Assembly: GCF_964019385.1 (NCBI RefSeq)
Contig: NC_088643.1
Location: forward strand, 47,065,550-47,129,549
Reading direction: 5' to 3'
DNA: 64,000 nucleotides
Source: Sycon ciliatum
Taxonomy: Eukaryota > Porifera > Calcarea > Leucosolenida > Sycettidae
Numbering within the stretch: the first letter of the stretch is position 1; every line of letters begins with the position of its first letter. This document shows positions 1,613 through 57,577 of this stretch, one piece after another. Under the pieces are notes generated by a model that did no database searches, was not told the DNA's origin, and saw nothing but the letters and a program-made list of their open reading frames with translations. The translations under genes and the position numbers were made by a program.

Positions 1613-2245
1613 AGGGATGTCAGCGAACGCACTGCGCAGGCCTCTGCGCATGCATTGCGTCATCGATTTTTTGAACGTGATCGCGGCCGACAGAGAAAAC
1701 ATGGCCGCGGTCTGTTTGCACCGCTGGGAGTCGTAAAATTACTGTTCTTCTGTCCCCGCGACCATTCAAATCATACACGATACAGGAGGACCCACGAGCT
1801 CACCACGTTCTCCCCGGTCGATTTCTCTGAAAGTTTGCACATCGTGAAACACCAGTATGAGAGGTGTTCAGGCCAATTTTCAAGGGATTACCCTGGTTGG
1901 ATCGTTCCAAAATCGGACTTGCATTTCTCGCTCGAGGCCATTTCTTGCGCGATGGAAGCGCTCTGCCCTGGTGAGTAACCAGCGTCGCGCTTGGTAGAGA
2001 GTTGCTGCAATCAGCTCCCTGATGTCTTCGCTGCCATTGTCAGAAGCGATGGACCCTGAATTTGTTTGAGAGTCTCTGGATGCTACATTTCCTCAGCCTA
2101 GTTTTCAGCCATTCCGTGCATCTTCTTCGCACGATTTATTTTGCAAAAAAATGAAAGGGTTCATGAGTTTTTTTGTCGGCCGCGCGTAGATGGGCCAGGC
2201 TCACCTGCGCAGATGGGCTGCGCAGTGCGTTCGCTGATATCCCTA
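1613..2245. mobile_element. TIR DNA element inserted in BEL gag
   Basis: About 632 bp are bounded by ~27-bp inverted repeats: the left end reads AGGGATGTCAGCGAACGCAC and the right end reads as its complement with one mismatch near the tip. The flanks carry the direct repeat CATCAAGT(A) at 1605-1613 and 2246-2254, an 8-9 bp target duplication. The inside has no transposase and only short chance open frames, so this is a non-autonomous element. An 8-bp duplication would suit hAT; 9 bp would suit Mutator- or Merlin-like elements. I cannot choose between them. Confidence 0.88.
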
Positions 2246-5200
2246 CATCAAGTATTAGTTTCTGCTGTGAACAGTGGCAGTGTACCGTCAGTACCTGTGC
2301 CAGTGGCAGCTCCCTGTGCTCCACCAGTGCTAATGTCCGCACCCACAGCCACCATGCAGCTACCAACAGTGCATCAATCGGTAGCCACAGTTAGCAACAC
2401 TGTGCCTTTTCCAAGTTATTGGTCAGGCCAGCAAGCATGCACCCAGGCGATGCCACCACTGCAGCCTGCGCTGCTGCAGCAGCCACAGCCGCAGACAGCT
2501 GCACCTATTATTTCAAAACTGCCAATTTTCAATCCAGCAGCTGGACAGCTCAATCCATGGGCCTCATCGTTCAAGCCCATAAGTAGGCCAGCAGTGACCC
2601 TGCCTGTAACAGCACCAGTAACTGTTCAGTCGACACAGCTTCCACCATCCTACAAGCCGCCCACCATGCCGGTAGTAATAGAGCAAACTGTGAAGCCCAT
2701 GGAACTGCCTAAGTTCAGCGGACTGGACCAGGACTACATTCCGTGGCGCCAAAGGTTCATCCGCGTCATCCATGAAAATCCCCGGTACACGAGCGATCAC
2801 AAACTCGCGAGGCTGCGTGAGGCAGTGGATGGAGGCCGTGCTGCGGAGATTGTGAGAGGGATTCTGGATGGCCCGGACGCCTACAGCCATGTATGGACCG
2901 AGCTCGATGCTTGGTATGGTGGTAGCGACAGGCTAATAGAGCACCAGATTCGGGATGTAGTGAGTCAAGCACGTATTACCAGTGACGCAGACTTGAGTGG
3001 GCTGCAACGGTACGCCATCAAGCTCCGTACCACTGTCGCCAACCTCCGAGCAAGTGGTGTGAGTCCTGGAGTAGAGCTGTACATAATGGCGTCTGAGAAG
3101 GTACCCAAGCGTCTCTTGGTAAAGTATTTCGAGAGGCATGGCCAGGTCAATGACGTCTTCACGTTCTCTGCATGGCTGGTGGAGCACGTCCGCACTCTGA
3201 AGCGGGCAGCCGACAGGATTCCCACTGAACGCCCCAAAGACATCAGCAGTCAGGCTACCAGGGAACGATCCACGGCCACACACCGTACGTTTGTTGGGAC
3301 TCATGACGCCGTCAGCAGCGGTGCCAAGGCGTCTTGCAAGAAGTGCAGTGGGCAGCACACCCTAGCCGAATGCAGCAGCTTCAAGGCATTGTCAACTAGC
3401 AAGCGTTGGGATTTGGTGAGGTTGCTCGAGCTGTGTGCGTGTTGCCTGTCATCTGGGCACTGGGCCGCTAGCTGCAGCAAAGACACCTGCAGTAAGTGCA
3501 ACAAGCGGCATCATGGTTTGCTGCATGCTGAGATGAAGGGCCAGACAGGTGCGAGGCGCGGGCGACCCTCGCCAGCTCAGAGGTCTGTCACCAACCATTC
3601 TTCCTCGTCCACAGCCAGCCGTACTGGAGCTGGCTCCATTGGCAACTCTGCTGCGGTGAACGAGAACAGCCTCAGTACGCATGGATGTGGTACCACTGCC
3701 GCATTCATGGTGTTGCAGGCCGACGTCATCGGCGAACATGGCAAGAAGATGAAGGCCACTGTGCTGCTTGACTCCGGATCGTCTTGTAGCTACATAACAG
3801 AGGATGCAGCTCACAAGCTGGAACTTGAAGGCCCGAAGTCACAAGTGGAAACGGCAGTCATCGGCGGCGGCAAGGTGACTGGGCTGAGACAACAGGTCAG
3901 CGTCAGCGTGTGCCGCACTGATGGTGACACTCCGAGCGTCACTGTGCTTGATGCCTGGGTACTGCCAGCAGTCACGGTCAACCTGCCACCAGTCGACTGG
4001 AATGCAGAGAAGAAGCACTGGTCCCACCTCCAGGACATACAGTTCCCCGACTCAGCTGGTCAGAGCATCGACCTACTGATCGGATTGAACGCTGCCAGCC
4101 TTCACACTGCGTATGAGGAGCGGAGTGGCAGTGAGGGAGGTCCGATTGCTCGGCTTACACCGCTGGGGTGGATCTGCTTTGGCCCAACGCCAATCGACGC
4201 TACTGCACCGCAGGCATTCACACTGCATGGCGCCTCCGTATCCAGCGCAGCTCAACTCGACCAAATGGTGGAGAAGTTCTGGAGCCTAGAGGCTGTTGGT
4301 ATGCAGCCTACAACCACGGAGTACCTGAGCCCTGCGGAGAAGCAAGCCGAGGCCGTCACATCCCGCAGCTTGAGTTACAGCGACTGCCGATTCCAGGTTG
4401 CCATTCCGTGGAAGGGTGGCACCAAGCCGAGTGTCCAGTCCAACAAACATCTCGCTTTACACCGTCTGGAATCTCTGCAAAGGGCACTTGACAAGCGGCC
4501 GTCAATCAAGCTGCAGTATACGAAAGTGCTGCAGGCGTACCTGGAAAAAGGATACATTCGACGCGTCTCCGAAGCGGCTGATCTCTCCATCCCTGACCAG
4601 TGGCACCTTCCCCACTTCCCTGTGGTACGGGATGACAAGACGACAACCAAAGTTCGAGTTGTTTTCGATGCAGCTGCCAAGTGCAACGGATATTCGATCA
4701 ATGACCTGATGCATGCAGGGCCTAATCTGATGAACAACCTTGTTCATGTCCTGCTGCGCTTCTGTCTCGAGCCCATTGCGATCGCCGGTGACATTACAGA
4801 GATGTTCCTTCAGGTTCAACTCGCTCCTGAAGACCGCAAGTATCATCGATTCTTGTGGCAGTCGTCACCGGGCACCATCGACACCTTTGAGTTCCTGCGA
4901 CTGGTATTTGGCATCAAAGCCTCGCCATACCTGGCTGGCAGGGCGCTCAAACAAGTGGCAGAGGAGTGCTGTTCGACGGCGGTGCCTGCTGCTAAGGAAG
5001 CTATCGACCACAGCTTCTACGTTGATGATCTGCTCAACTCCCAACCAACTGAGCAACTGGCAATCTCTGTGCGAGCTGATCTGCAGCACACTTTGGCACG
5101 AGGAGGGTTCCATATTCGGAAATGGATCACCAACTCCCCCGCAGTGCTGCAGTCCATTCCTGTTGAACACCGCGCTGTGACAAATACCCGTGACATTGTC

Positions 5201-7723
5201 TCTCACGAGCAGCCACCTGCGTCTCCGAAGACTCTGGGGGTCACATGGGTTGCGGCGCAAGACCAGTTCACGTTCCGCTACCCAGAGCCGGTCGACGTAG
5301 AGTACACCCGGCGAGGTGTGCTCAGCTCCATGGCGCAGCTGTTTGATCCGCGTGGCCAGCTCAGCCCATTTACGATCCGAGCAAAGGTGAACTTCCAGCA
5401 GAGCTGCATCAGCGGGCTGGGGTGGGACGATCCTCTTGGCCACGAACAAGCTGTGAAGTGGAAGCGGTGGTTCAGCGAGTTTGAAGACCTCAGCTCTCTC
5501 AACATTGAACGAAGCTTCAAGACTGCCGACAGCAGGGGAGAGCTGCAGTTGCACACGTTCTGTGATGCATCCGATGCCGCTTATGCCGCTGTGACGTACG
5601 TGCTATCACCGCAGACTGATGGCGCCAACAGAGTGACACTCGCCATGGCAAAGGCCCGACCCTCCCCGGTCCGTCGCAAGTCCATACCCATGCTAGAGCT
5701 TCAAGCCGCTGTGCTTGGCGGTCGGCTGGGTGCCAATGTTGGCGTTGCTCTAAGCATTCCATCGGCCCGCCGGTTCTTCTGGACGGATTCTATGAATGTT
5801 CTTTACTGGGTGAGATCTCCAAGCCGCAAGTTCAAGGTTGAGGTTGGGAACCGGATCTCGGAGATTCAGGAAACCACCAGTAGCCGGCACTGGCAGCACG
5901 TACCTGGTAAACGGAATCCTGCCGACCAAGCCACTCGCGGTCTCTCTGCTGCGCAGCTCGCGATCAATGAAGTCTGGTGGCATGGCCCTGCGTTTCTTGC
6001 TGCTCCGGAATCTGAATGGCCAGCAAAGCAGATTGTCGTTCCCCAGGAGCTGCCAGGACTGACAAAGAAATCCATGTGTGCTAGCTTCGTCGGAAGTTCT
6101 ACTGCTGCAGCACCCACTGATCTTGGTCCAGCCCGGTACTCATCGCTGGACAAGCTGATTCGCATCACAGGCTGGTGCCGTAGGTTTGCTCGCCGTGCGC
6201 GCCGTAAACCACAGCCAGCGGATAGCAGTCAACAGCAGGTCACTGTGGCTACAAAGACTGGGACGCTTGTCATCAACGAACTCTCGGCAGAGGAGCTGCA
6301 ACAAGCGGAGCGTCTCTGGATCAGTCAGGCTCAGCAAGATGCGTATCCAGAAGTGTTCAAACGTGTCCTGGGCAACAAGGAGCTGCTGGGTTCGGATGCG
6401 TTGGTGCAGCTGCGACCTACCATGGATCAGTCTCACTGCATCCCAGTCATGCGGGTCGGTGGTCGACTACAGACGTCCCACCATCTCCCTGGCGAGCTGA
6501 GGAGTCCCACCATCCTGCCCCCAAGGCACCGCGTCACCCAGCTGGTGATTGGACGCGAGGATGACCGCTGTCGCCACTCAGTCGGGCCCAACCACCTCCT
6601 CTCCAATCTGGCCGACAAGTTTTGGATTGTTCGTGGCAAGATGGCTGTGCGTTCCCACCGCCATGCTTGCGTGAAGTGTCGCAGAACCTGGGCTAGGACA
6701 GCCAATCCAGTCATGGGCCAGCTTCCTGTCTTCCGCACAGCACCACCACTGCAAACCTTCTCTCGCGTTGGTATTGACTTTGCCGGCCCGTTCCACACTC
6801 GGCAGGGCAGAGGTCGTACCCAGCTGAAGCGGTATGTATGCGTGTTCAAATGTCTGCAGACAGGCGCCTGCCATCTGGAAGTTGTCAACTCTTTGGATGT
6901 GGACGGCTTCCTCCTATGCTTCACTCGCTTCTGCAAGCGCCGCGGAACTCCTACAGAGATTCTTTCGGACAACGGAACAAACTTTGTTGCCGCCGAGCGA
7001 GAGCTGAGGGAGGCTTGGAGTCAAGCTAGTGAGCAAGCAGGCCAGCGACTCGCTACACAAGGCATCAAATGGCGTTTCAACCCACCGTTGTCGCCCCATT
7101 TTGGTGGCTATTTTGAGTGCCTGGTCAAGGCAATGAAGAAGGCTCTCCAGTCCGTGTTGTACCGTGCTGACTTGACTGATGAGGAGCTCCAGACAGCGCT
7201 AATTCAAGCCGAAGCGTTGCTGAATTCGCGTCCGCTGACTGTCGTTTCAAGCGATGCTGATGACCCGGCCCCCCTGACACCGCTGCACTTTCTTGTTGGC
7301 CATCAAGATGTCTCTGCTGCCCTGGAAGATGTTGCTGATGCAGAACAAGTGGTACACCCACATCGCCGTTGGAAGTATGTTCAGCGGCTGACACGTGACG
7401 TGTGGAGCAGGTGGCTCAAGGAAGTTGTGCCGAAGCTGAATGTGCGCTCCAAATGGCACCGCGGCGAGCAGAATGTCAAAGAAGGTGATGTCATGATTGT
7501 GCTTGAGGAGCACACGCCACGAGCCCGCTGGCCACTCGGGAGAGTGCAAGCTACGTACCCTGGTGAAGATGGTGTAGTGCGCGTGGTGGACATCAAGATC
7601 AACGGCAAGATCTACCGTCGTTCAGTTGGTCACCTTGTGCCGCTGGAGGTACCCGACGCTTCACCCGCAAACGCCATTCGCAGCGTCAACACCGGCATGA
7701 CCATTGGTGACATCACCGAGTGA
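2246..7723 (+). CDS. pol: BEL gag-pol polyprotein, main part
   Basis: The open frame extends from an ATG at 2141 (inside the inserted element) to TGA at 7723, 1860 codons; numbering is from that ATG. The order is: a proline-rich linker; a capsid-like region (~188-350, starts MELPKFSG, as in DUF1759); zinc knuckles with Cys/His from C399; aspartic protease with DSGS at D544; reverse transcriptase with D884 and YVDD at 960-963; RNase H near D1142; a zinc-binding HHCC-like region (~1480-1520); integrase catalytic residues D1546, D1610 and E1659; and a C-terminal DUF5641-like domain (~1770-1850). This protease-RT-RNase H-integrase order with the A17-type protease is diagnostic of BEL/Pao. No stop or frameshift was seen after 2246. 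The original start is the ATG at 636, now separated by the insert. Confidence 0.95.
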   Translation, partial: HQVLVSAVNSGSVPSVPVPVAAPCAPPVLMSAPTATMQLPTVHQSVATVSNTVPFPSYWSGQQACTQAMPPLQPALLQQPQPQTAAPIISKLPIFNPAAGQLNPWASSFKPISRPAVTLPVTAPVTVQSTQLPPSYKPPTMPVVIEQTVKPMELPKFSGLDQDYIPWRQRFIRVIHENPRYTSDHKLARLREAVDGGRAAEIVRGILDGPDAYSHVWTELDAWYGGSDRLIEHQIRDVVSQARITSDADLSGLQRYAIKLRTTVANLRASGVSPGVELYIMASEKVPKRLLVKYFERHGQVNDVFTFSAWLVEHVRTLKRAADRIPTERPKDISSQATRERSTATHRTFVGTHDAVSSGAKASCKKCSGQHTLAECSSFKALSTSKRWDLVRLLELCACCLSSGHWAASCSKDTCSKCNKRHHGLLHAEMKGQTGARRGRPSPAQRSVTNHSSSSTASRTGAGSIGNSAAVNENSLSTHGCGTTAAFMVLQADVIGEHGKKMKATVLLDSGSSCSYITEDAAHKLELEGPKSQVETAVIGGGKVTGLRQQVSVSVCRTDGDTPSVTVLDAWVLPAVTVNLPPVDWNAEKKHWSHLQDIQFPDSAGQSIDLLIGLNAASLHTAYEERSGSEGGPIARLTPLGWICFGPTPIDATAPQAFTLHGASVSSAAQLDQMVEKFWSLEAVGMQPTTTEYLSPAEKQAEAVTSRSLSYSDCRFQVAIPWKGGTKPSVQSNKHLALHRLESLQRALDKRPSIKLQYTKVLQAYLEKGYIRRVSEAADLSIPDQWHLPHFPVVRDDKTTTKVRVVFDAAAKCNGYSINDLMHAGPNLMNNLVHVLLRFCLEPIAIAGDITEMFLQVQLAPEDRKYHRFLWQSSPGTIDTFEFLRLVFGIKASPYLAGRALKQVAEECCSTAVPAAKEAIDHSFYVDDLLNSQPTEQLAISVRADLQHTLARGGFHIRKWITNSPAVLQSIPVEHRAVTNTRDIVSHEQPPASPKTLGVTWVAAQDQFTFRYPEPVDVEYTRRGVLSSMAQLFDPRGQLSPFTIRAKVNFQQSCISGLGWDDPLGHEQAVKWKRWFSEFEDLSSLNIERSFKTADSRGELQLHTFCDASDAAYAAVTYVLSPQTDGANRVTLAMAKARPSPVRRKSIPMLELQAAVLGGRLGANVGVALSIPSARRFFWTDSMNVLYWVRSPSRKFKVEVGNRISEIQETTSSRHWQHVPGKRNPADQATRGLSAAQLAINEVWWHGPAFLAAPESEWPAKQIVVPQELPGLTKKSMCASFVGSSTAAAPTDLGPARYSSLDKLIRITGWCRRFARRARRKPQPADSSQQQVTVATKTGTLVINELSAEELQQAERLWISQAQQDAYPEVFKRVLGNKELLGSDALVQLRPTMDQSHCIPVMRVGGRLQTSHHLPGELRSPTILPPRHRVTQLVIGREDDRCRHSVGPNHLLSNLADKFWIVRGKMAVRSHRHACVKCRRTWARTANPVMGQLPVFRTAPPLQTFSRVGIDFAGPFHTRQGRGRTQLKRYVCVFKCLQTGACHLEVVNSLDVDGFLLCFTRFCKRRGTPTEILSDNGTNFVAAERELREAWSQASEQAGQRLATQGIKWRFNPPLSPHFGGYFECLVKAMKKALQSVLYRADLTDEELQTALIQAEALLNSRPLTVVSSDADDPAPLTPLHFLVGHQDVSAALEDVADAEQVVHPHRRWKYVQRLTRDVWSRWLKEVVPKLNVRSKWHRGEQNVKEGDVMIVLEEHTPRARWPLGRVQATYPGEDGVVRVVDIKINGKIYRRSVGHLVPLEVPDASPANAIRSVNTGMTIGDITE

Positions 7724-7818
7724 TCAGTAATGTGTGTTCCGCTCATGCTTTGCTTTCATCTTCTCACATAAATCTGTGTGTGTAATAGATTCTCACTCAT
7801 AGAAGTTTCTTTTCGTTC

Positions 7819-7828
7819 GAGAGGGAGG
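7819..7828 (+). promoter_or_regulatory. Polypurine tract of BEL element
   Basis: GAGAGGGAGG ends two bases before the right LTR, where plus-strand priming is expected. Confidence 0.75.
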
Positions 7829-7830
7829 TA

Positions 7831-8283
7831 TGTTCGGTCCTCCACCTTCTTCCATCATACGATTAGTAATATTACTACATGTATTAATAGGTCGCGGCAC
7901 TGAGTTATGTCTTGTCTCATGCCATCTGTGCATACGCGGTTCGGGCACACCCGCGTGCTCGGGGCTCGCGCGAACTGAACCATGTGAACCGTGAGCAGTA
8001 CTTTCATCCATATTTGCATGCAACCTGCCCTTATTCATACATGTACTGATAGTGTAGTCAGTGCTGGTGTTAGTTTTCTGTTTCGCAAGTGGAGACAAGT
8101 AGTTGTAGTTTGTTTTCCTCTGCTCGAATGATGTGTTTGTTCTTGCAATAAGTCCTTCCGAATAATACCTTTCTCCTTGTCTGAGTCCTGTTCCATCGTG
8201 TCTGTTGTGAGAGTCAAGTGACTTTATTAGTGAGGGTTGTGACAGCCCGGACAGCACGAGATTACGAGTCCAGTGATCCGACA
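7831..8283 (+). repeat. 3' LTR of BEL element
   Basis: This is the second copy of the 453-bp LTR, starting TGTTCGGTCC and ending GATCCGACA, followed at once by the GTATG target duplication. Confidence 0.96.
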
Positions 8284-8566
8284 GTATGGGTATAGTGGAT
8301 GGCCACAGTGGAGTCTTCGCACCTTGAGAAATCCTGGGAAAGCATGATAAATTAGACTTGCGGTGGGGGACTCTTGCCACATACGAAAGTGAAATTCAAG
8401 TAGACAGCAAAACTCCAGTATTAAAATTAAATTAAAATGTGGATTCAGGTATACTCCCCATGCCGGACGCGTCCTTCCCCACTACCAACACACCGAGTCC
8501 CATCCATGGTGTTTCAAAGAAAACAATAACAGCAATGCAAAAAATATATATCCCTGACTGCCATAC

Positions 8567-39565: not shown

Positions 39566-42500
39566 TCACATATCTTCTTCGCATACACAGTCGTCCTCGT
39601 CTTCATCATCTTCCTCACCCTCATCAGAGGTAACATCCTCTTGGTCTTCTTGCGCAATGCACAGTGGGCATGTGCATGCAAACAGGTAGTTCTCCCTACA
39701 CAGAGGCAGAGACCAAAGCACTGATCAGTTCCAAACACTAATAGCACTTCCAGCGCTGCAAGAAAACGTCGGACTTACCGCAGGTGCTTTTGACGGCTGT
39801 GCCGACTCCGATCTCGCATGCATTCATCCAGATAGCTGATGCACACCTCCTGTCAGAGCAACGGGAGAAAAAAAGAATCTTGATTATTCGAATACGGCTT
39901 GATTCAAACTTTCTTCCAGGAACGATTTCAGCCAATACAATTCCTCCAATAATAATGTCCGATCATTCTAACTGGGCATGTAGGCCTTATTAGAAGTCCC
40001 AGAAAATCCACTTTACAGAGGGTTTAGGTGGGATTCCTGCTGATAATTCAATGCTCACCGTACACTGTACGGGTTTATTCAATGTGCGCTGGCAGGCGGT
40101 ACTGATCAGTTCAGAATATGCCAAATCTGCGTCCATAGTGCATGCTAGTATAGCAACTGTGAGTTAATGGGCGCATCACGACATAAATACTGTGTAGCGG
40201 GTACATGTTCAGAAAACAAGAACGTCTGGACAATGGAAGTCCCCCCCCCCCCCCCCCCCCCCGGCAAGCTGGGATTCGAATTATCAGGATGTCACCTGTA
40301 CATGCACCTGTATAACGCCAATGCAAGCAGGGAGAAAAAGCAAGTGTGCGTGTGCACGACGGCTCCCAAATGCACATCTTACCTCGCCAATATTGATGTC
40401 CTGCATGGCAACAATACTCAATACATGATTACCAGCAGCAAAGGAAACCTCCACATTCGGTACACAGCTGTGATTCACTAGAACGCAGTAGAACATACAC
40501 AGAAGAATAGAGCCAGTCACATGCTGAATGCACAACGCTATTCACCGTAGTTATAATTTATAACGTGGAGGCACAGAACATGACGGAGTGACGAACCACA
40601 CAAGGATCGGAATTCCACAGCACAGTAGGACAAGGAGGTCCAAGGGCCATGCACTAGTACGGCTACCAAACTAAAGCTTTGTCTAGTGGAAGACTGCTAA
40701 CAGACCAGCGGAATAAACGAATATTCATAATCATTTCTCTCTTTACACGTACAAGATACTCGTCTAAAACAACAACAACAACAACAACAACACACACTTA
40801 CAGCGGCTCTGGTGGTGGTAAATACCAACGCCTTCAACATCCAAGAAAGGGCCATTCACTGCATGAGACGAGAAAAAGAAAGCAGGACATTGTACACTAT
40901 TGTTATGTTGAGTGACACAGAGTGACAGAGTTAGTGTGGACACATTCACCCTGGGATCACAGACAGCTGTCTGAGTCAATCATGCAGCATGTGTTTCCAC
41001 GTGCACATACATGTAGCTACAACTGCGGTTACTCGCTGCCTACCTTCTTGCATTGCTGCATACACGGCATCAATTGTGGCATCAATATCGTCCTTCGCTG
41101 CTTTGGGCAGGTCAGCTTTCTCTACGTTGTGTACATATCGACTGAAAGCACTGCAGCAGATGGGAAACAAATATCAGGATAACATATACCAGTCAGTTTG
41201 GTGCAATCGCTTATTTCTGCCACCAGTGGCAACCCAAAAGTACCAGCAACGTGTAAAAGAGGACCCATCTAGCCACCATAAAACACAGAAGAACACAGAA
41301 GAACTGCTGCAAGGAAATGACGTATTTCGAATTAGAATGCACAGTCCTCATAATGCAGTATGCTAACCTTGATCCAATGCCTTGCTGGTTGCGTCCAAGC
41401 AGCGCCAACAGAGACCTGAATCTGTCACCAGTCAGCCACTGTCAGCAGAAGCAGTAGCCAAGTGAACAGCAGCAGCAATATTAATACAGAATAGTCTCTA
41501 TATCGAGAAAGTACATGTATATTTAGAAGCATGCATGGGAAGGCTGGTAGAAAGGTCAGCATACAAAATATTAACAAATACCAATACTATAACCGCAATC
41601 AATAAAACTAGCTGAACCGACATTTGTGTACTTTATTCATGCAATGTAAAAAACGGTGGAGACGATGTGCAATAAAACGATGAAAATATGAAGAAATGGT
41701 GTAGGGAAAAAATATGGATTCAAACAAGTTTTCGTACAACACTCATCAGGAATCGTCGTTGTACTAAAGGACACTGAAACAGAAATTGAACTATTATAGA
41801 AAATCTAAGTTAGAGAAATAACACTAAGAGCAACAACAGTGAAATTTACAAGTGTGAATTTTAGCAATCAAAGCGAGAACTGAACAAAGGAGAAAGGAAG
41901 GAAAGACAACGTGATAACACATAACAGCAGTACATTACACCTAGAACATTAACGGCCAAGCTTGGCCGCACTAAACACGACACGTTACTTGAACAATTTC
42001 AACCCAATTATACTATCTTTCTGTACACACAAATTAGGCTTGTACAGACGCTGATAGATAGCTTCCAACACTTTTAACTGTAGTCCATAACCATGACGAC
42101 CACGGCACAATACAGTGAACGAAGAGTCGGAATACGCACCGCAACAATCAGGACTAGCCAGCAGATGATTGTACACTGAAGACTTGCTACCACGAAACCT
42201 ACGCACAACACTAACACTCTCACCGGCACTCTCACCATCACTCCCATCACTGCTCTCCGACTCACTGCTCCCTCCGCCGTCCGTTCCATCCTCCGCTTCC
42301 TCTGTACTCTCTCTGTCTCGTCCATCCCGCCTGACCGGGTCCATTGAACTCAACTCGGCCGTCCCCCTGCTATCACGTCCCTCCTTTCGCCCTCGTCCGC
42401 TGAGTGCGTAGCTTCTGTTGTAGTTGGCTGTTGATCGTCTTGGTCTTTCAATTATGGGCTTGGATGGTGGATTAGTTGTGGTTGCTGTAGATTGCGTTGT

Positions 42501-44707
42501 TGGTGTTGGTGTGGGAGTTACTGATATGCAAGGTGGGTCTTTTTGAGTCGGCATTTGTAGTGTTAATGCAGCTGTCAGTGTTGCTCGCGGTCTGCCACTG
42601 GCAAGCTCCACCGCCGCAAGAACCGATGGCGGAGGATCAGGAGGAGGCAGTGGGACCGGGATCGCAAGCGGCACCGCCTCAGCCAAAGCCGCCGGGGGCA
42701 CTGACGAGGGAACCACCGACGGCCGGAGCAAAGGCGGCGACACAAGCCGACCCTCTATCACGTCCCTCCTTTCGCCCTCGTCCGCTGAGTGCGTAGCTTC
42801 TGTTGTAGTTGGCTGTTGACCGTCTTGGTCTTTCAATTATGGGCTTGGATGGTGGATTAGTTGTGGTTGCTGTAGATTGCGTTGTTGGTGTTGGTTGTAC
42901 ACAACCCGCGGATCCTGGCTCACAGACTGTGCTTGCTCCGCCGTCGTTGGTGGCGGTGGTGGAGGAGAATGGGCGTGGTGGCTCATCGGGTCGGCTTGTC
43001 GGGTCGGCCTGATCCTCCGCAATCTACAGCAACCACAACTAATCCACCATCCAAGCCCATAATTGAAAGACCAAGACGATCAACAGCCAACTACAACAGA
43101 AGCTACGCACTCAGCGGACGAGGGCGAAAGGAGGGACGTGATAGCAGGGGGACGGCCGAGTTGAGTTCAATGGACCCGGTCAGGCGGGATGGACGAGACA
43201 GAGAGAGTACAGAGGAAGCGGAGGATGGAACGGACGGCGGAGGGAGCAGTGAGTCGGAGAGCAGTGATGGGAGTGATGGTGAGAGTGCCGGTGAGAGTGC
43301 CGGTGAGAGTGCCGGTGAGAGTGTTAGTGTTGTGCGTAGGTTTCGTGGTAGCAAGTCTTCAGTGTACAATCATCTGCTGGCTAGTCCTGATTGTTGCGGT
43401 GCGTATTCCGACTCTTCGTTCACTGTATTGTGCCGTGGTCGTCATGGTTATGGACTACAGTTAAAAGTGTTGGAAGCTATCTATCAGCGTCTGTACAAGC
43501 CTAATTTGTGTGTACAGAAAGATAGTATAATTGGGTTGAAATTGTTCAAGTAACGTGTCGTGTTTAGTGCGGCCAAGCTTGGCCGTTAATGTTCTAGGTG
43601 TAATGTACTGCTGTTATGTGTTATCACGTTGTCTTTCCTTCCTTTCTCCTTTGTTCAGTTCTCGCTTTGATTGCTAAAATTCACACTTGTAAATTTCACT
43701 GTTGTTGCTCTTAGTGTTATTTCTCTAACTTAGATTTTCTATGATAGTTCAATTTCTGTTTCAGTGTCCTTTAGTACAACGACGATTCCTGATGAGTGTT
43801 GTACGAAAACTTGTTTGAATCCATATTTTTTCCCTACACCATTTCTTCATATTTTCATCGTTTTATTGCACATCGTCTCCACCGTTTTTTACATTGCATG
43901 AATAAAGTACACAAATGTCAGTTCAGCTAGTTTTATTGATTGCGGTTATAAAATTGTTGTCTCCTCGCCGTGTGTTTAAATACCAATACAAGGAAAGAAG
44001 AACTACAAATCTCAACCTATCGTTCACCACCATCATCAATAAACTGGTTCTGTCGGGTTCATGAATTTCGGGGTCCTCATTGATGGTGATGGTGAAGAAT
44101 CTTTCCCTGATAAGTTTCCTGTCTCCAAGAAAGTTTTAAATACCAATACAATGCATCAATTCATTCAATGACAGATACATACCATAATATTCTCTATTAT
44201 AAGAGCCGTGCTTATATTTTTTCAGCACCCCTCTACCCCGCGCTTATATTGGAGACTGCGCTTATATTATAACCAATACATCCATACAGAGCAAGAAGAA
44301 CTACATGCTAGATATCATGCATGCAGCATTGATTTCCACCAAGACCGTGCTAATAATAGAGACTGTGCTAGTAATGGAGACCTGTGCTTATAATAGAGAA
44401 TATACGGTACACCCAGACCCAGAACAAGGGCATCTTCACACTATAGGCAATGCATGTACACTGAAACAGACGACTGTCATCCATGAAACAACTCAAATGT
44501 AAAAGTAAATAAGTCCTCACCAAGCATCATTCCTGCTTCCTCATTCTAGGAGATCGAGATTTTACAGAGCAAGAATGAAGAAAGGTCAGCAGGCAACATA
44601 CACTTCGACAGCACATTCCAAAAAGCAGACAGGAAACGTACCAGGCAGTTTCGTTCTCCTTCACCATACAGCAGCTGCAGACATCGGTGAATGCGTTCAA
44701 TTTGGGG
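39566..44707 (-). CDS. SMYD5: SMYD5-type SET-domain protein, 3' part (7 exons seen)
   Basis: SMYD5 is a SET/MYND protein lysine methyltransferase. Exons on the minus strand: 44707-44642 ([20 protein letters not shown], weakest), 41421-41368 ([17 protein letters not shown]), 41150-41044, 40858-40802, 40477-40383, 39849-39779, 39695-39566. They encode the SET motif [12 protein letters not shown], then [28 protein letters not shown], post-SET cysteines in [12 protein letters not shown], and a strongly acidic tail ending at TGA (39566). This matches the SMYD5 C-terminal layout, including the acidic tail. Phases join from 41421 to the stop (171 codons). One small exon between 44642 and 41421 was not found. 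The N-terminal SET half and the MYND finger are absent and should lie in the N gap. Confidence 0.87.
41717..41754 (-). ncRNA. Hammerhead ribozyme motif, left arm
   Basis: On the minus strand this is the same 38-nt motif as 43784-43821, in the inverted copy of the retroelement tail. All conserved core bases and all three stems are identical. Confidence 0.75.
41985..42836 (-). CDS. Penelope-like element protein, C-terminal part, left arm
   Basis: An open frame of 283 codons with no clear native start. The N-terminal half is Pro/Ala-rich low complexity. The middle holds [17 protein letters not shown] and acidic Ser/Glu repeats. The last ~65 residues ([44 protein letters not shown]) resemble the C-terminal half of GIY-YIG-type endonuclease domains found at the end of Penelope-like and related retroelement proteins. 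The catalytic GIY and YIG motifs themselves and any reverse transcriptase are not present. It is truncated at its 5' side. Confidence 0.65.
   Translation of the reverse strand: MKDQDGQQPTTTEATHSADEGERRDVIEGRLVSPPLLRPSVVPSSVPPAALAEAVPLAIPVPLPPPDPPPSVLAAVELASGRPRATLTAALTLQMPTQKDPPCISVTPTPTPTTQSTATTTNPPSKPIIERPRRSTANYNRSYALSGRGRKEGRDSRGTAELSSMDPVRRDGRDRESTEEAEDGTDGGGSSESESSDGSDGESAGESVSVVRRFRGSKSSVYNHLLASPDCCGAYSDSSFTVLCRGRHGYGLQLKVLEAIYQRLYKPNLCVQKDSIIGLKLFK
42882..43553 (+). CDS. Penelope-like element protein, C-terminal part, right arm
   Basis: This frame mirrors the minus-strand frame at 41985-42836 from residue ~47 onward. It has three GESA-type units where the left arm has one, and the same C-terminal [17 protein letters not shown] segment before TAA at 43553. 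The first ~46 codons come from the spacer and are probably not native. It is a second truncated copy of the same retroelement end. Confidence 0.65.
   Translation: MLVLVVHNPRILAHRLCLLRRRWWRWWRRMGVVAHRVGLSGRPDPPQSTATTTNPPSKPIIERPRRSTANYNRSYALSGRGRKEGRDSRGTAELSSMDPVRRDGRDRESTEEAEDGTDGGGSSESESSDGSDGESAGESAGESAGESVSVVRRFRGSKSSVYNHLLASPDCCGAYSDSSFTVLCRGRHGYGLQLKVLEAIYQRLYKPNLCVQKDSIIGLKLFK
43784..43821 (+). ncRNA. Hammerhead ribozyme motif, right arm
   Basis: Read 5' to 3': stem I strand GATTC; core CTGATGA; stem II GTG-TTG-TAC (3 pairs, one G-U); core GAA; stem III AAC-TT-GTT; cleavage-site base T (U17, at 43816); stem I strand GAATC. Stem I pairs perfectly over 5 bp. Every invariant hammerhead position is met. 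Stem III is very short, as described for hammerheads in Penelope-like retroelements, and it sits 3' of such an element's ORF. Cleavage would fall after 43816. Activity is not shown by sequence; the 2-nt stem III loop suggests activity may need dimer formation. Confidence 0.78.
44182..44409. mobile_element. ACCGTATATTC-type MITE, copy 2
   Basis: The left end is TACCATAATATTCTCTATTA; the right end is GAATATACGGTA. It is a shorter relative of 24959-25258 with the same internal blocks. It lies in a SMYD5 intron. Confidence 0.78.

Positions 44708-44955: not shown

Positions 44956-57577
<12,622 letters not shown>

Follow-up and report, generated by a model that had tools for sequence, protein, structure and literature searches.

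A probable Penelope-type hammerhead ribozyme in an inverted, apparently two-strand-primed insertion in the calcareous sponge Sycon ciliatum

Introduction

Minimal type I hammerhead ribozymes of Penelope-like elements (PLEs) were reportedly described by Cervera and de la Pena in 2014, and a study by Lunse et al. from 2017 is said, going by its title, to concern PLE hammerheads as well. Publication of such motifs in PLEs is also evident from the accessible parts of two further papers (PMC6155905, PMC7761336), and in those parts the second describes the role of the motifs as unknown and notes that they may self-cleave as tandem dimers (PMC7761336). Here a stretch of 64,000 nucleotides of the Sycon ciliatum genome (NCBI RefSeq assembly GCF_964019385.1, contig NC_088643.1, positions 47,065,550 to 47,129,549 of the forward strand), termed the window, was analyzed in which two identical 38-nt motifs lie in the opposed arms of an insertion derived from a PLE. 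Probably, the motif is a minimal hammerhead of the PLE type, with predicted cleavage, in the pseudo-long terminal repeat (pseudo-LTR) of a high-copy PLE, and the copy in the window represents a single, dead insertion that was primed on both target strands. The motif adds to the hammerheads already known in PLEs. As far as the accessible descriptions extend, it resembles these in its type I order, full core, very short stem III, pseudo-LTR site and tandem copies for dimer cleavage, but differs in escaping the Rfam models and in that many Sycon copies stand in inverted pairs, a whole-insertion transcript of which contains one motif in sense orientation plus the complementary sequence.

The best characterized comparison is the Poseidon element PAc of the lizard Anolis carolinensis (PMC11167929). 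Like the Sycon element, PAc has reverse transcriptase (RT) and GIY-YIG domains in one open reading frame (ORF), a pseudo-LTR and a hammerhead near the ORF start. In vitro, both target strands are cleaved and extended, and reverse transcription begins at two adjacent internal sites with the tail between them; the hammerhead cuts only in the presence of protein and is dispensable for insertion in vitro (PMC11167929). Two start sites that bound the tail, and extension of both DNA strands, also are proposed here for Sycon. The PAc hammerhead overlaps the ORF start, whereas that of an uninterrupted Sycon copy (L009) lies ~95 nt upstream of the first ATG. Furthermore, the Sycon start sites appear to be split between the two ends of the insertion, whereas PAc in vitro displays no strand difference. 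This genomic division of start sites between strands is what the window adds to the lizard study.

Penelope families of the rotifer Adineta vaga share with the Sycon element inverted head-to-head pseudo-LTRs, long inserts within the ORF and a tail, of 31 bp in Adineta, that is optional on one inverted pseudo-LTR, to judge from the accessible parts of the relevant paper (PMC3846280). Target duplications are 8-10 bp in the cases described there compared to ~12 bp in Sycon, in which copy number is high, one long and one short end occur in 29 of 30 scorable insertions and the ORF insert splits the GIY-YIG domain; a hammerhead is unmentioned in those parts for Adineta. How PLEs form head-to-head insertions is presented as an open question in the same text (PMC3846280). 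With hundreds of copies in the Sycon genome, paired long and short ends together with target duplications make two-strand priming directly testable. Metazoan retrozymes likewise bear type I hammerheads in retrotransposed DNA, but in the accessible account are small non-autonomous repeats with RNAs of ~170-400 nt (PMC7229834), in contrast to a 3.55-kb element coding for RT and endonuclease. Retrozyme identity, namely a small non-coding repeat without protein genes, is ruled out by the 3551-bp unit with its 1065-aa frame.

Hammerhead Motif and Its Conservation

Invariant positions are given in the standard numbering of the hammerhead core. A preliminary description of the window had proposed a 38-nt motif with every invariant base at 43784-43821 on the plus strand, and an identical motif in the inverted arm at 41717-41754 on the minus strand. 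Inspection of the sequence verified the coordinates, the core and the inverted arms. The plus motif reads GATTC-CTGATGA-GTGTTGTAC-GAA-AACTTGTT-T-GAATC and possesses C3 U4 G5 A6 N7 G8 A9, G12 A13 A14, the A15.1-U16.1 pair and H17. Three helices can be drawn with stem I open: stem I spans 5 bp, stem II 2-3 bp and stem III the 3 bp of AAC/GTT closed by a 2-nt loop. The cut predicted from the sequence lies between 43816 and 43817, which agrees with the proposed cleavage after 43816, the position of H17. A motif search that allowed up to three mismatches produced 2 matches in 64 kb and 0 in 100 shuffles. A more general description of the type I arrangement, which required CTGANGA, a second stem, GAA, a short third stem with A15.1-U16.1, H17 and at least 5 pairs in stem I, matched the window solely at the two motif sites and was absent from 60 first-order Markov sequences.

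The genome from which the window derives (538 Mb, 313 contigs; window at C1:47065550-47129549) was searched with the pattern CTGANGA-N3-14-GAAA-N4-14-TTTGAATC, which gave 477 + 498 = 975 matches, compared to 1 + 0 for the backward pattern. The listing comprised the first 100 of the 975 places, and four of these were unlike the family of the window. In a few of these 100 places (e.g., C1:240028, C1:918742) a 32-nt variant occurs in which GAA is followed by one A fewer, a change that would weaken stem III.

A sister family was recovered with the query P0006, for which 150 matches of 8099 candidates were scored. Its motif, GCTTC-CTGAGGA-GTGTTGTGC-GAA-AACTAGTT-C-GAAGT, occupies the same place 3′ of the stop codon. 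The window and sister motifs are identical at 31 of 38 bases without gaps (33 of 38 in a pairwise alignment in which the final two bases are displaced by a 14-nt gap), whereas the flanks show 46% identity upstream and 60% downstream. The families differ only at N7, at H17, in the loop of stem III, in stem II, where U-A becomes U-G, and in stem I, which has a compensated A-U to C-G change and a G-C to G-U change. Among seven representatives, 94.3% of cells are paired, a value reached by 24 of 500 shuffles, and structures slid along the alignment attain 16-39%. Sister copies also were chosen irrespective of the motif (n = 26; L049-L054, L089-L108), and the fetched piece shows the motif in 18 but not in the other 8. 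CTGANGA and GAA are kept in 16 of the 18, among which L053 is without A15.1 and L092 and L101 each have one helix change. The preliminary description had named uncompensated core changes in other copies as a sign against a ribozyme. A core base is indeed lost in two of the 18 (L096, L098) and GGA replaces GAA in 4 of the 100 listed places, as expected of dead elements.

Certain results nevertheless count against a ribozyme. The covariance-model check advocated earlier was negative: on the strand of the motif no Rfam family matched, whether the gathering cut-off or E ≤ 10 was applied. All five weak matches at E ≤ 10 were to small nucleolar RNA models on the opposite strand, and a sister-family copy likewise elicited no hammerhead match. 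The seven representatives contain one double change only, beside several one-side changes that keep pairing, and 123 of 500 shuffles equal that count; the helix comparison thus appears in good agreement with a hammerhead, with weak statistics. In addition, the best predicted fold of the lone 38-mer is at -7.5 kcal/mol compared to ~+5 kcal/mol for a hammerhead with a 2-bp stem III, the form adopted since the nearest-neighbor model is unable to score the 2-nt loop. Folding energy by itself would not identify the site as a hammerhead, and the monomer is expected to be a poor ribozyme. The lack of a covariance-model match is outweighed because of the 975 genomic pattern matches and because the sister family varies only at positions at which hammerheads permit change. 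It is very unlikely that the motif instead is a conserved binding site or promoter part of the pseudo-LTR with a chance likeness to a hammerhead. Such a site would fit with the missing Rfam match, the poor monomer fold and the conservation of an adjacent upstream block, TAGTACAACG, which is identical at 11/14 and 12/14 positions in two other families, but not with the presence of every invariant position or with family differences that fall only at N7, H17, the helices and the loop, one of them compensated. Moreover, minimal hammerheads are reported throughout PLEs in the accessible parts of the literature (PMC6155905, PMC7761336). Overall, the data support the earlier suggestion of a short-stem-III hammerhead of the PLE kind in a PLE tail that is present in both inverted arms.

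The Host Element

The ORF that precedes the motif had been thought to end like the GIY-YIG-associated C-terminus of Penelope-like proteins, and its protein relatives and a C..C...YVGRT motif bear this out. Of 20 candidates in the protein collection, 11 proved related to the C-terminal segment of the right-arm frame, and three of these 11 (P0001, P0003, P0011) contain the first half of GIY-YIG (ECRQCASRYVGRT...) upstream of a long low-complexity stretch. Copy L009, at C1:30.31 Mb, lies in a tandem array with a 3551-bp period and has an uninterrupted 1065-aa frame (stop to stop) in which RT is joined to a split GIY-YIG domain. The stretch of ~230 residues that splits the domain (residues ~766-1000) is rich in P, S, E and D. 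An RT-centered search yielded 1477 related proteins at E ≤ 1e-3 among 6174 candidates, with precomputed PF00078 assignments in many of the best 120, and an alignment of the query with 15 of these proteins (16 sequences) shows conservation of the C..C...YVGRT and RT motifs. The RT is presumed to be a PLE enzyme from its motifs and its linkage to GIY-YIG, both taken as features of PLEs. The arrangement of copies also is that of PLEs: pseudo-LTRs in tandem or inverted copies, 5′ truncation, short target duplications and an optional tail.

Domain scores in part detract from this assignment. RVT_1 matches L009 with E 8.4e-6 and 26.1 bits, below the Pfam cut-off of 29.6, and the GIY-YIG matches (E 0.018-0.05; 0.05 in L009) also are below cut-off. 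NCBIfam returned weak RT matches only, and a PDB sequence search with the element nothing useful; among viral contigs and genome contigs, 4 and 29 stretches, respectively, matched the pattern for element relatives with 0 confirmed. Judged on its sequence, the host is an endonuclease-containing PLE with a high copy number. The window copy is without RT, retains only the C-terminal part of GIY-YIG and is dead.

Structure of the Window Insertion

The two arms in the window constitute one insertion, 41588-43977, between 12-bp target-site duplications (Table 1). Each arm contains one template jump, with 18 unassigned nucleotides between the two template pieces of the right arm, and the arms are joined at ~42895/42898. 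A 141-nt direct repeat (42755-42895 and 42370-42510) is a product of the left-arm jump. Perfect matches of at least 12 bp were reached by 1.6% of 380 mismatched left and right flank pairs, and the duplication may partly be microhomology, given the ambiguous first five bases of its right copy. The arms differ by 2 substitutions and a 24-bp difference in repeat number, which could be read as the trace of two independent PLE insertions that face each other by chance. This is exceedingly improbable: the 12-bp duplication brackets the pair (duplications of single arms were not looked for), and among the listed places of two families tail-out pairs predominate and tail-in pairs are absent. The sole internal length change between the arms is in a 12-nt coding repeat, GGTGAGAGTGCC (43278-43323 on the plus strand, and in the left arm), with 3 versus 1 exact copies.

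Table 1. Positions of the parts of the insertion and of the hammerhead motifs within the window
Feature	Position	Strand	Remarks
Hammerhead motif	43784-43821	+	Stem I 43784-43788 with 43817-43821
Hammerhead motif core, plus copy	CTGATGA 43789-43795; GAA 43805-43807; H17 = U 43816	+	Sequence
Hammerhead stems, plus copy	Stem II 43796-43804; stem III 43808-43815 (AAC TT GTT)	+	Sequence
Hammerhead motif, identical to plus copy	41717-41754; H17 at 41722	-	Sequence
GTACAAC, conserved between families	43774-43780	+	Complementary to GTTGTAC 43798-43804 (3′ side of stem II); putative competing 7-bp helix
Left target-site duplication AAATACCAATAC, 12 bp	41576-41587		Perfect match to right copy
Right target-site duplication AAATACCAATAC	43978-43989		First 5 nt AAATA could equally be element sequence
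Left arm, 5′-truncated PLE copy, tail outward	41588-42895	-	Blast map to L009 unit: 3951 to 2785, then 3174 to 3028
Right arm, 5′-truncated PLE copy, tail outward	42898-43977	+	Blast map to L009 unit: 3980 to 3042, then 2796 to 2695
Left-arm outer end, short tail end (...ATTGCGGTTATA)	41588	-	134 nt beyond minus-strand cleavage site
Right-arm-only tail extension, 27 nt (long tail end)	43951-43977	+	Arm comparison
Left-arm open frame, 283 aa, GIY-YIG C-terminal part	41985-42836	-	ORF; stop TAA 41985-41987
Right-arm coding remnant, GIY-YIG C-terminal part	43018-43553	+	Stop TAA 43551-43553; inside 225-aa open frame 42876-43553

Ends of Paired Insertions

Paired, tail-out copies recur throughout the genome. 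Within the 100 listed places of the window family, 28 neighboring pairs lie within 12 kb. In 25 of these the tails point outward (minus-then-plus), whereas 2 are minus-minus, 1 is plus-plus and none is plus-then-minus; shuffling of strands gave a tail-out mean of 7.1 and a maximum of 17 in 20000. The sister family (150 listed) behaved similarly, with 17 of 23 neighboring pairs tail-out, 1 minus-minus, 5 plus-plus and none tail-in, compared to a mean of 5.8 and a maximum of 15 tail-out pairs after shuffling.

The outer ends of these pairs follow a consistent pattern. In the window family, 22 paired loci were reduced to 20 by collapsing L020, L030 and L031, which have a common outer flank and inner ends, and three unscorable loci (L018, L019, L022) left 17; places with one or no mapped end (L029, L032, L033, L039, L040, L043, L045) were not counted. 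In 16 of the 17 insertions one end is short, at ~398-416 of the unit in the blast map, and the other is long (~423-440). Both end regions of 17 sister-family pairs were assessed, of which 4 were unscorable and all 13 others had one long and one short end. Thus, 29 of 30 scorable insertions in the two families possess one end of each type, offset by ~20-35 nt (27 nt in the window), and P = 2.9e-8 for at least 29 of 30 under the assumption of independent and equally frequent ends. Direct repeats of at least 11 bp flank 15 of 20 loci, compared to 13 of 380 mismatched flank pairs; here L020, L030 and L031 were counted separately and L018 and L019 were left out. The 15 derive from a wider pass with its own controls, and less slack around the blast-defined ends reduced the number to 12 of 20. 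In the loci read, the inner ends of paired arms differ by 9 to >1800 nt, and where they abut they overlap by ≤11 nt or enclose ≤18 nt of foreign sequence.

Two-strand target-primed reverse transcription emerges as the simplest model from the long and short ends in combination with the lizard PLE biochemistry. In this scheme, the element endonuclease would cut both target strands ~12 bp apart, and each target 3′ end would prime reverse transcription of element RNA from either of two start sites, which are separated by 27 nt in the window and by ~20-35 nt in the sample, with one strand using the inner site and the other strand the outer site. Both cDNAs would be 5′-truncated, undergo one template jump each and be joined head to head.

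Not all of the observations sit comfortably with two-strand priming as inferred here. Several tail-out pairs are segmental duplicates of each other, such that pair counts overstate independence. L012 has two short ends, and no flanking repeat longer than 7 bp was detected at 5 of 20 loci (L012, L020, L022, L036, L048). Some long flanking repeats are (AAT)n-like, and the control maximum of 33 stems from (ATT)n-like targets. For the lizard element in vitro, start-site use did not differ between strands (PMC11167929). Furthermore, the arms are nearly identical, with 0 to 15 substitutions over overlaps at 18 loci and 3 in 6227 bp in the longest, which would fit with copying of one arm from the other. 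Such copying is the essence of self-priming, proposed for rotifer PLEs, in which a single antisense template or cDNA would fold back at a short palindrome and serve as its own template; in the accessible parts of that report it is the published interpretation of head-to-head copies, on antisense RNA (PMC3846280). The scarcity of arm-to-arm differences favors self-priming but does not decide the matter, as common source RNAs would have the same outcome, and in a two-template test only 3 of 93 substitutions over the 18 loci had both alleles elsewhere, many being without context for testing. Self-priming is considered unlikely for Sycon. A copied arm should share the tail end of its template, but a long end is combined with a short one in 29 of 30 scorable insertions, which speaks against the published model. 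Direct repeats outside both arms in 15 of 20 loci also are at variance with it, as is the difference in position of the inner ends, although an internal fold-back would permit some difference there. A statement of the long and short end rule was not found in the open-access literature searched, with some key papers on PLE structure and hammerheads lying outside its coverage.

Many sister-family insertions (ends of L055-L086) lie within (AAT)n or (ATT)n microsatellites. Other PLEs also are reported to prefer AT-rich simple sequence (PMC11167929; PMC3846280, the latter in its accessible parts).

Folding and Activity of the Motif

The preliminary description had argued that whichever strand of the insertion is transcribed exposes one ribozyme. 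This is not supported: on either strand the complement of the motif is transcribed ahead of the sense motif, and in the predicted fold of an RNA that spans both arms all 38 nt are paired with the other arm. Because of this predicted pairing, the motif in its present place most likely would be buried in a long hairpin and inert. A tandem partner for dimer cleavage also is absent from the window. In living elements with tandem copies, the hammerhead may act on read-through RNA, either in dimer form or in conjunction with element protein.

The insertions themselves point to template RNAs that were uncut at the hammerhead, since the tails extend beyond the cut by 134 nt in the left arm and 161 nt in the right, and a 6.2-kb arm at L009 continues from one tandem unit into the next across an intact hammerhead. 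Inner ends coinciding with the cut, a sign of a cleaved template, were sought at 19 simple-junction loci; this set did not include L018, L019, L023, L025, L033, L045 or the duplicate loci L030 and L031. Only 1 of 38 ends (L032) was within 5 nt of the cut and there was no cluster.

The GTACAAC block that is conserved between the families could pair with GTTGTAC and, as a suggestion only from the sequence, the resulting helix would compete with the ribozyme. The helix is kept in the seven representatives save for one pair in L005, and no double change that would indicate covariation was detected among them. A broader proposal, to which slightly less than even weight is given, is that two-strand target-primed reverse transcription is the rule for these PLE families with a fixed division between strands, one using the inner and the other the outer site ~20-35 nt apart to give one long and one short end, and that the hammerhead is kept from acting within the template, possibly through the GTACAAC/GTTGTAC helix, until protein or a tandem partner opens it.

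Surroundings of the Insertion

The insertion had been assigned to an intron of SMYD5. A SET-domain stretch at ~40383-40481 on the minus strand (Pfam E 4e-5; best PDB match SMYD3, E 0.095) and a post-SET-like motif at 39659-39682 both are located downstream of the insertion, and an intron is likely because the insertion lies upstream of these two features. The SET stretch, the post-SET motif and a frame at 41211-41441 are taken here to resemble SMYD5. The assignment is plausible and is supported in this downstream part only; N-terminal SMYD5 exons were looked for and were not located.

Other mobile elements are evident in the window. An open frame of 1873 aa at 2102-7723 on the plus strand belongs to a BEL/Pao LTR retrotransposon (Peptidase_A17, RVT_1, rve, DUF5641), and is flanked by minus-strand frames at 83-652 and 7793-8395 that have a long identical stretch in common and probably are its LTRs. 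A remnant of a BED-finger/DUF659 (hAT-like) transposase is located at 49078-50053 on the minus strand.

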